The notes beneath the pieces were generated by a model, which worked only from the letters and a program-made list of their open reading frames with translations, had not been told where the DNA came from and did no database searches. This document shows, piece after piece, positions 22,601 through 25,600 of a stretch of 64,000 nt of DNA. Where the stretch lies: contig JACBWW010000051.1 in NCBI GenBank assembly GCA_020086605.1, positions 638,097 through 702,096 on the forward strand, given 5' to 3'. The DNA is from Lanius collurio. Lineage: Eukaryota; Chordata; Aves; Passeriformes; Laniidae. The first letter of the stretch is position 1; the number at the start of each line of letters is the position of its first letter. The position numbers and the translations under genes are program-made.

Positions 22601-25600
22601 ATATAGAACGAAATTAATTTAATTATCTTTTGCTGATTTAAAAGTAAAATCCTTGGGCACATTCTAACCATTGTCTCTTAAAAGACCGCTTTTCAATACA
22701 GTCCCATCATACACAGAATTTTTCATGAGATTCTTAAGAATTCCCACTGCCTCCCTACCCCAGTAAAAACAATACATAAAATGAATATTGTTCTCATTTG
22801 TTTCCATAAGCTCACATTACCTTTTTTTAAGCAGCTTATTTTTATGCTCTAGGAGGTCAGTGATTTCATCACAACGTACTGTGTTGTGTTTAAGCCAGTG
22901 ATGTTCACTCACATGTTGCCAAAATATGCTGACATACTTGTCTCTTAACAGGTGAATACGTAATCATGACAGTTTATTTCCACTTGCAAAGGAAGATGGG
23001 CTACTTCATGATACAGATATACACTCCTTGCATTATGACAGTCATTCTTTCTCAGGTGTCTTTCTGGATTAACAAGGAGTCTGTTCCAGCCAGGACAGTT
23101 TTTGGTATGCTGCATTAAGGTCTTTGAATAGCTCAGCATCATCTACCATTCATTCATTCCTTCCTTTCATCGCTTGTTTGTTTTAGGTGAATATTCACTC
23201 CAGCTGCTCTACTTCCATCTTCAAAGGAAAATAGGCTACTATCTCATTCAGACATACATTCCATGCATCATGACTGTAGTCCTGTCTCAAGTTGTGTTTT
23301 GGATCAACAAAGAATCTGTTCCAGCAAGAACTGTGGCTGGTATTTGTGTTTTTCCTTTTGTCATTAGTTTACTTTAATTTCATTTCATTTAATTTCATTC
23401 ACTGTATTGAATCCATTGTATCAATCAGATACTATCATCCATGGAGGATTAGGAAAGGCAGCTAGTGGGTTTTAGTCAGCAAAAGTACATACTAAGGTGA
23501 AACCAAGTGATAGTTAATTTTCCTATGAGGGTCAAAATTCTTGACTCAGAATGTTTGGTTACTCAGACTTGTTTGTGATGCTTTGCAATATATTTTTGTA
23601 TGCAGGAAGAGACAATTTCAGAGTAAATGTCAACTTCTTCATTTTTTTAAAGAGGTTTTTTTTCCTATGGATTTACTGTCTTGTGAAACCAATATGAGTT
23701 AAAGCTTAAAAAAAAATCACATGGAAGGGAGTTATTATCTGACATAAGGTGCCTCATCTAACACCCATTCTGGAGTGCTCTCTTCCCCTTGGATATCTAA
23801 ACAACTAACAAGGACTTTAGATGGATAAAGATCAGTGAGATGAATAATGTCCCTAGCACAGGTTGGACTTAAAATGAGAAAGATGTATCCATATTGCATG
23901 GCAGGGTTTTTTTTTTTTTCTTTCCAGTGGTTTGACTTAATGCTCTCAAAGCTTTTGAGTCTCCTGGTCCATATGTGTATGAGGTCCATACTCCAAGTAT
24001 GATGCTGCCTGCTTTGGCTTCATGTTGCATCTCTGGACTGTTGAGTTACATCCTCTACATTTTGAGTAAAACATACTTGCAACATAGTGGTCACAGAAGG
24101 TAACTGCACATGCTTGAAGAGATGTGCAAGTAGGTCTGTAGCTGATGTGGTAATAATTATATAAATACCTCAAACACTGGAATATCAGCTCTTAGGTGTT
24201 GTACTGAAGAGTAACATGGACTTGAGAACATATTTTATGAAAAGTGTAAAACAGACACATTTCTGTATTGTGGAAAATAGCAACATTAGCATTTGGAAAG
24301 AACACTTAAATCTTTCTTCCATTTGTATGTGTCCCAGGGCACAGTCTGAATTTGTAGTCCTGACTTGTTCAAAAACCAATGGATTCTGAATACCTTAATC
24401 TAAGGAAAAAAAGGGCAAATTCCTTATGACAAAAAGAGACTTCCACTCTTTTTCAGTGAAAAAGGTTTAAAATGGAGAAGGTTTAAAATGCATCTTATTG
24501 CAAATACCTTGATTATAAATTTTCACTTTTACTTGGAAGTCCCAAAACTAGGCTGGAGAGAAGAGAAATTAATAGTAGAAGAACAACCATTTGCCTAAAC
24601 TAGTTTCTCAGCACAAAATAATTTAAGGACTGTGTTTACCTCCAAAATGGATGCCAGTTATCAGATTTCAGTGTTTGCATTATGTAACACATCCTTCAAA
24701 ACTTACCAAGTAGTGTTCAAAATATAGAGACAAGGGTAAACAATTCACAGTTGCACAGTTTACCAACTGTAATTTGGTATTCAGTTTGATAAAGTAGCTT
24801 TCCACAGTGCAGAGCGCTTAATCAGTATTCACTCCACATTGAGAAAATTCTTATCTATATCTGTAATAGAATAGGTGACCTATTCCTAATTCCTGCTGCA
24901 GTAAGTTTTTATTCAGACACAGAATATATAAATTTTATTACAAACTAGCACATGGACAGATTCTAATCTAATCACACATCATTTCGAAAAGTTCATTCTG
25001 GATCTTTGAAATTGAAACACATCTCAGCATACTTGTATTCATATTATAAAATGAGTCTGGCAGATTTGGGAGAAGTAGGGATCCTACATATTTCTGTACC
25101 ATTCCCTATTTGTATTTCATTAAAACATGTTGAGTAATGACATTGGGACATAGTTAACCTCAGACAGCTGGCAAGCCACATCATGTGAAAAAGTTGCAGA
25201 GAAACTCTGAAAATAATGTCACCCTGTCTGGATGCTACTATATGCTATGACACTGCATCCTTTCCTCTGAGCATCACTCACAGGATATTATTTCATCAAT
25301 TCAACATGACCATCACATGGTATGACATTAAAACATCTTTTACTCTCCCACCTACCCTTTCCCAACTGCAGAAGATAGGAGAAGAGGATATTTTCCACCT
25401 TACTGTCTTTAAATACCCATGGTTTTTACATTCCAGCAGGCATAATTATAAGTAAATATGAGTCACAGAGGCTTGTATGTAAATGATTGAGTTTATTCTT
25501 GCATTTTCTGCTTGTATCAGGCAGCAGTAGGAAGTAAGTGTATTTCCTACATTATTAATGCTGTATACTTCAACACAGAAAGAATGAATTAATGAATTCA

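Follow-up and report, generated by a model that had tools for sequence, protein, structure and literature searches.

In AMPA receptors, which are ligand-gated channels, flip and flop are encoded by two tandem exons of comparable length, whose exchange alters the kinetics; they are located in the ligand-binding domain and have been kept in mammals. Alternative exons encoding segments of the extracellular domain are found in the insect GABA receptor Rdl and in the alpha-2 subunit of the glycine receptor (exons 3A and 3B). Here, we analysed a stretch of 64,000 nt from Lanius collurio (contig JACBWW010000051.1; henceforth the window), in which the gene GABRA6 carries two versions of exon 7, called 7a and 7b. 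That 7b is a real coding exon is virtually certain, and we put at roughly 87% the probability that it is a long-established, functional coding exon used as an alternative to exon 7, which would give two full-length subunits by splicing. An earlier note on this DNA knew of no described vertebrate alpha subunit with alternative M1 exons; our literature search, with thin coverage of subscription journals, found none either, nor did it find a functional or evolutionary account of 7b isoforms. The GABRA6 isoforms predicted by NCBI (X1 to X5) for birds, reptiles, frogs and fishes already include 7b. As far as we have seen, 7b is annotated already, apparently without a description in the literature searched.

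The window holds a complete GABRA6 gene with ten coding exons on the + strand, spanning ~21.8 kb from 19639 to 41474. Its assignment in the earlier note was correct: the best solved-structure match of the encoded protein is the alpha-6 chain 9oum_C, aligned end to end (787.6 bits, E 2.7e-236), and the next is alpha-4 (703.2 bits), i.e., full-length similarity is greater to alpha-6 than to other alphas. Of the 304 proteins fetched from our searches, which are the best rows of three lists (up to 120 each) and not a random sample, alpha-6 of Corvus cornix was the closest among the matches listed (99.1% identity over 449 residues). Coding exon 1 (19639..19676) encodes the signal peptide and is followed, likewise on the + strand, by exons 2 (19829..19947), 3 (20212..20279), 4 (21498..21718), 5 (21830..21912) and 6 (22386..22529, with the 3′ edge CAG/GTAAGA). 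Exon 7a (22952..23104) encodes the canonical pre-M1 segment, M1, the M1-M2 linker and M2 up to the 4′ glycine, and exon 7b (23187..23339) an alternative version of it with alanine at M2 3′, conserved from sharks to birds. Exon 8 (26303..26562) encodes the remainder of M2 and M3, and exon 9 (36187..36447, 3′ edge GAA/GTGAGT) the loop and M4, as placed by sequence and by agreement with bird proteins. The coding part of exon 10 (41424..41474; FFEPSAMHFRNDPQSN and stop) was placed through bird proteins, in which exon 9 is spliced to it and which end in the tail FFEPSAMHFRNDPQSN. Read-through of exon 9 (36448-36458) gives a mammal-like C terminus, DTMEVSS, and the two endings are a possible C-terminal variant. 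A perfect AAGAA repeat of 18.8 copies (17686-17779) lies ~2 kb upstream of the GABRA6 coding start.

Exons 7a and 7b are homologous tandem exons, each with an open frame, and their layout is as the earlier note had it: both are 153 nt long, 82 nt apart (intron 23105-23186, + strand), in the same phase as one another and as exons 6 and 8, and both are preceded by AG and followed by GT, with the splice sites intact. Joining exon 6 to 7a or to 7b and then to exon 8 leaves an open full-length subunit either way, again as claimed. Since 153 is a multiple of three, the frame also stays open when the two exons are included in tandem or when neither is included. All 51 residues of the 7a product equal those of the mammalian alpha-6 chain in PDB. 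The two exons agree at 107 of 153 nucleotides and encode the same residue at 37 of 50 whole codons; with the split glycine common to both, this gives the 38 of 51 common residues counted before, and the earlier count of different codons for 21 of the identical residues also holds (21/37). Third positions account for 28 of the 46 differences, and by NG86 dN is 0.19 and dS saturated. When 46 changes (24 of them transitions) were placed randomly on 7a in 100,000 runs, a mean of 22.1 residues and a maximum of 32 were kept; none of the runs kept 37, and 24,776 were without a stop. These figures point to an ancient duplicate whose protein product is under selection, in line with the proposal that 7b reflects neither recent copying nor decay. 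Across species, selection on both exons is seen at the level of protein conservation. The flanking intron stretches (400 nt, 82 nt and 400 nt) contain exact matches of at most 11 nt among the matches listed, and tblastn detected no third copy of exon 7 in the window.

The distribution of 7b was taken from predicted proteins, clustered at 90% identity, of which the best 120 of 818 matches to the 7b segment alone were listed. Among these best 120 of 818, 7b-bearing GABRA6 proteins are annotated in birds, in turtles (Pelusios, Pelodiscus, Caretta), in lizards (Podarcis, Pogona, Sceloporus, Anolis, Phrynosoma), in frogs (Xenopus, Ascaphus, Discoglossus and others) and the salamander Ambystoma, in the lungfish Protopterus (labelled alpha-4-like), the bichirs Polypterus and Erpetoichthys, the sturgeon Acipenser, the bowfin Amia and two sharks, Chiloscyllium and Stegostoma. 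No mammal, snake or crocodile is named among them; in such a list of clustered predicted proteins, absence does not equal absence in genomes. The mammalian alpha-6 proteins seen, PDB chain 9oum_C and P0122 (Bos mutus), have 7a only, and snakes, crocodiles and mammals may have lost 7b independently. Both exons occur in one gene outside the teleost duplication, in models from sturgeon, bichir, lungfish, shark, lizard and bird; for the bowfin, only a 7b isoform is among the rows. Of the groups in which the earlier note proposed to look for 7b, other birds, turtles and lizards have it at the protein level, and the absence of frame-breaking changes in relatives is supported in part, by intact 7b proteins in many species from databases that hide broken copies. 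The earlier reading stands in its core: 7b is a genuine alternative exon under selection and codes for pre-M1, M1 and the beginning of M2. What falls is its avian frame, as 7b is a feature of jawed vertebrates and not a bird novelty.

Conservation within birds is high: 49 of the 57 bird or bird-like rows among the best 120 of 818 show 100% identity across 52 residues, in species as far apart as ostrich and songbirds. The remaining eight comprise five rows from four owl species, two models of waterfowl or fowl with deviations at the edge of exon 7b, and the bird-like P0082. The owl versions are P0011 and P0088 (Tyto), P0076 and P0077 (Strix) and P0078 (Otus), with 92-98% identity; that of the barn owl is the most altered, and two Athene owls have the common bird form. 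Shifted selection in nocturnal birds is a possible reason for these changes. In the databases, several 7b genes are labelled alpha-4-like, namely P0014 (Protopterus), P0111 (Anguilla) and P0217 (Megalops). Outside exon 7, the rows from lungfish and eel fall with alpha-6, which suggests that the three genes are mislabelled; P0217 stood outside the tree on which this grouping is based.

Complete proteins with 7b alone are encoded on contigs too short to hold introns. P0082, a bird-like protein of 465 amino acids, comes from a 3038-nt contig, and its residues 1 to 449 align with the 7b form from the window; P0304, a teleost 6a protein of 451 amino acids, comes from a contig of 1891 nt. As the gene in the window measures ~21.8 kb, 7b would thus enter full-length mRNA. 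The contig of P0082 should derive from spliced RNA; a retrocopy of such RNA is less likely. The form with 7a alone was seen only as annotated or PDB proteins. P0093 was rejected as a transcript, as its sequence reads through introns. Together, the conservation from sharks to birds and the complete 7b proteins on short contigs strongly support the core reading of 7b as an alternative exon.

In teleosts, the two exon types are distributed over two genes. Among the matches listed, the exon is of the 7b type in proteins annotated as alpha6a and of the 7a type in those annotated as alpha6b; the list queried with 7a contains no alpha6a label, and the lists queried with 7b contain no alpha6b label. 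In 25 of the 26 species with both genes among these matches, one gene has 7b only and the other 7a only, the pairs having been assembled from names in the lists queried with 7a and 7b and not from a random sample. The exception is Paramormyrops, with one gene for 7b only and one with both exons. The latter (P0023) has an odd 7b at residues 275-326 (GNYLIQ, TVAQSQI), as if decaying, and its sister gene has a more usual one. In a tree of 32 proteins with exon 7 removed, teleost 6a and 6b, Arapaima and Paramormyrops group together (17/32 rows, 100/98), with Amia next to them (90/84); the long branches of Arapaima and Ambystoma are uncertain in position. The tree of exon 7 itself (43 rows, only 51 columns) places all 20 of its 7b rows in one clade (100/98), and a single group of teleost 6a and 6b exons was rejected (p-AU 7.3e-5). 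Each of the duplicates thus keeps one exon type, and outside exon 7 they group together. The simplest history is that an ancestral gene with both exons was duplicated in the teleost ancestor, after which 7a would have been lost from one copy and 7b from the other.

With beta and gamma-like exons as the root, the exon tree gave no resolution for dating the exon duplication. Neither the separation of 7a plus the other alpha exons from 7b (p-AU 0.129) nor that of the alpha-6 exons from alpha-4, alpha-1 and alpha-5 (p-AU 0.144) was rejected, and hence the duplication may have preceded or followed the split between alpha-4 and alpha-6. In seven of the 304 fetched proteins, among the matches listed, a gabra6a segment is fused to a beta subunit, which fits the neighbourhood of GABRB2 and GABRA6. 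Two zebrafish papers (PMC5922542, PMC7973766) name both genes, and their accessible parts are silent on the exon difference.

To describe the exchange in residues, exon copies among the 304 fetched proteins were classed by nearest reference, and numbering follows alpha-1, set by G258 as 4′ (accessible part of PMC4410641). Among the matches listed, M2 3′ is alanine in all 213 copies classed as 7b and phenylalanine in 112 of the 114 classed as 7a, the other two being gamma-like. When the distinct sequences beyond an identity threshold were compared (30 of 7a, 63 of 7b), the two types had no residue in common at three positions: 222 (Met in 7a; Leu or Ile in 7b), 225 (Phe; Tyr, rarely His or Cys) and 257, which is M2 3′ and adjoins the 4′ glycine (Phe; Ala). 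Separation is near-complete at 212 (Met; mostly Gln) and 213 (Thr; mostly Val, Leu or Ile). According to the accessible part of PMC4410641, the 4′ glycine and the lower M2/M3 interface control desensitization, and the M1-M2 linker matters as well, and so the exchange is located where kinetics should change. The two alpha-6 forms would have the GABA-binding domain in common and differ in pre-M1, M1, the M1-M2 linker and the inner end of M2. From the sequences, we infer that the exchange alters gating or desensitization, because in 7b the Phe at M2 3′, next to the glycine at 4′ that belongs to the desensitization gate, is replaced by Ala.

Zebrafish alpha6a is probably of the 7b type, judged by its otophysan relatives Chanos and Brachyhypopomus, which carry 7b in alpha6a. 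In the accessible part of PMC7973766, alpha6b with beta3 gave a GABA current in oocytes, whereas alpha6a gave none with beta1, beta2 or beta3, with or without gamma2. This would agree with a 7b isoform that is made, but forms no ordinary GABA-gated channel, being dominant-negative or in need of another partner. We regard this as an unlikely, though not negligible, alternative: by the same partly accessible source alpha2b and alpha4 were also without current, the assignment of zebrafish alpha6a to the 7b type runs through its relatives, and the extreme conservation of 7b fits a working channel part, though it is compatible with a regulatory one. As to splicing, it agrees with our preferred explanation, in which 7b is a functional alternative to 7a; the missing current of alpha6a was nevertheless counted against that explanation, as were the proteins containing both exons (22/304) and the broken copies that protein databases hide.

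These proteins bear on how the pair is used. Under our preferred explanation, exon 6 would be joined to 7a or to 7b and then to exon 8, yielding two full-length alpha-6 subunits, and the two exons would normally exclude each other. Alternatively, both might normally be included, giving a longer subunit with two pre-M1/M1 segments, in which case 7b would be no alternative at all. Among the matches listed, 22 of the 304 fetched proteins have both exons in tandem and in frame, including P0001, which represents 72 member sequences, and P0025, a weak match; a length of 153 nt preserves the frame, and exclusion may accordingly be leaky or absent. We consider regular double inclusion improbable: 182 of the 304 have 7b alone, among the matches listed, many as full-length isoforms of the same species (e.g., in Pogona, Tyto and Discoglossus), P0082 and P0304, from the short contigs, likewise contain 7b without 7a, a single exon suffices in each of teleost 6a and 6b, and a doubled M1 would be expected to upset the membrane topology. 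Largely exclusive use of 7a and 7b is the probable arrangement, and strict mutual exclusivity is plausible. In alpha-tropomyosin, a donor and a branch point that lie too close can interfere. Counted from the donor of 7a, the A of the TTCAT (branch-point-like) motifs in the 82-nt intron lies at 48, 52 and 65 nt, and the distances to the acceptor of 7b are 34, 30 and 17 nt; the first two motifs are near the spacing for interference of the alpha-tropomyosin kind. Exclusion may result from the short distance that this intron leaves between the donor of 7a and the branch point of 7b. Donor scores do not set the pair apart (0.7 for 7a and −0.4 for 7b, compared with −0.2 for exon 2 and 0.7 for exon 8).

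A pseudo-exon, recent copy, gene-conversion tract or assembly artefact, for which the tandem layout alone would speak, is hardly credible and was rejected on divergence (saturated dS at dN 0.19), simulation (0/100,000 random placements keeping as many residues), flank similarity of up to 11-nt matches only, and the same exon in many species and in one clade of the exon tree.

GABRA6 is among the leading-edge genes in expression data from chick retina, RPE and choroid (PMC6026464) and in RNA-seq of form-deprivation myopia (PMC7935918), in both cases without exon detail in the accessible parts. For zebrafish, the accessible part of PMC5922542 describes gabra6a as prominent in the photoreceptor layer, and that of PMC7973766 reports that alpha6a signals at 5 dpf are weak in forebrain and midbrain and absent from the eye, which counts against a role in the retina. 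We tentatively suggest, as a reading less likely than not, that GABRA6 of the jawed-vertebrate ancestor had a splice switch in its channel-forming part with two gating modes, that the mode with Ala at M2 3′ (7b) served retina and photoreceptors, that in teleosts two genes took the place of the switch and that mammals lost it. If so, mammalian alpha-6, the basis of GABA-A pharmacology, would represent half of an ancestral subunit.

Few drug targets have been studied as much as GABA-A receptors, chiefly in mammals. An exon that is near-unchanged in birds, traceable to sharks and absent from the mammalian proteins seen would offer a natural experiment on gating and desensitization. In the teleost gene pair, evolution has already separated the two versions, which makes them directly testable, and the split into 7a and 7b is a testable explanation for the differences between zebrafish alpha6a and alpha6b in expression and in oocytes.

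Compared with the described systems, 7a and 7b resemble AMPA flip/flop in being neighbouring exons of comparable length in the gene for a ligand-gated channel; unlike these, they exchange M1 together with the inner end of M2, and none of the mammalian proteins seen contains 7b. With Rdl and the glycine receptor alpha-2 subunit, GABRA6 has in common both the alternative exons and the receptor superfamily, but the exchanged part is membrane-embedded. Within GABRA6 itself, teleost gabra6a and gabra6b carry the same two exon types, but as two genes instead of two exons.
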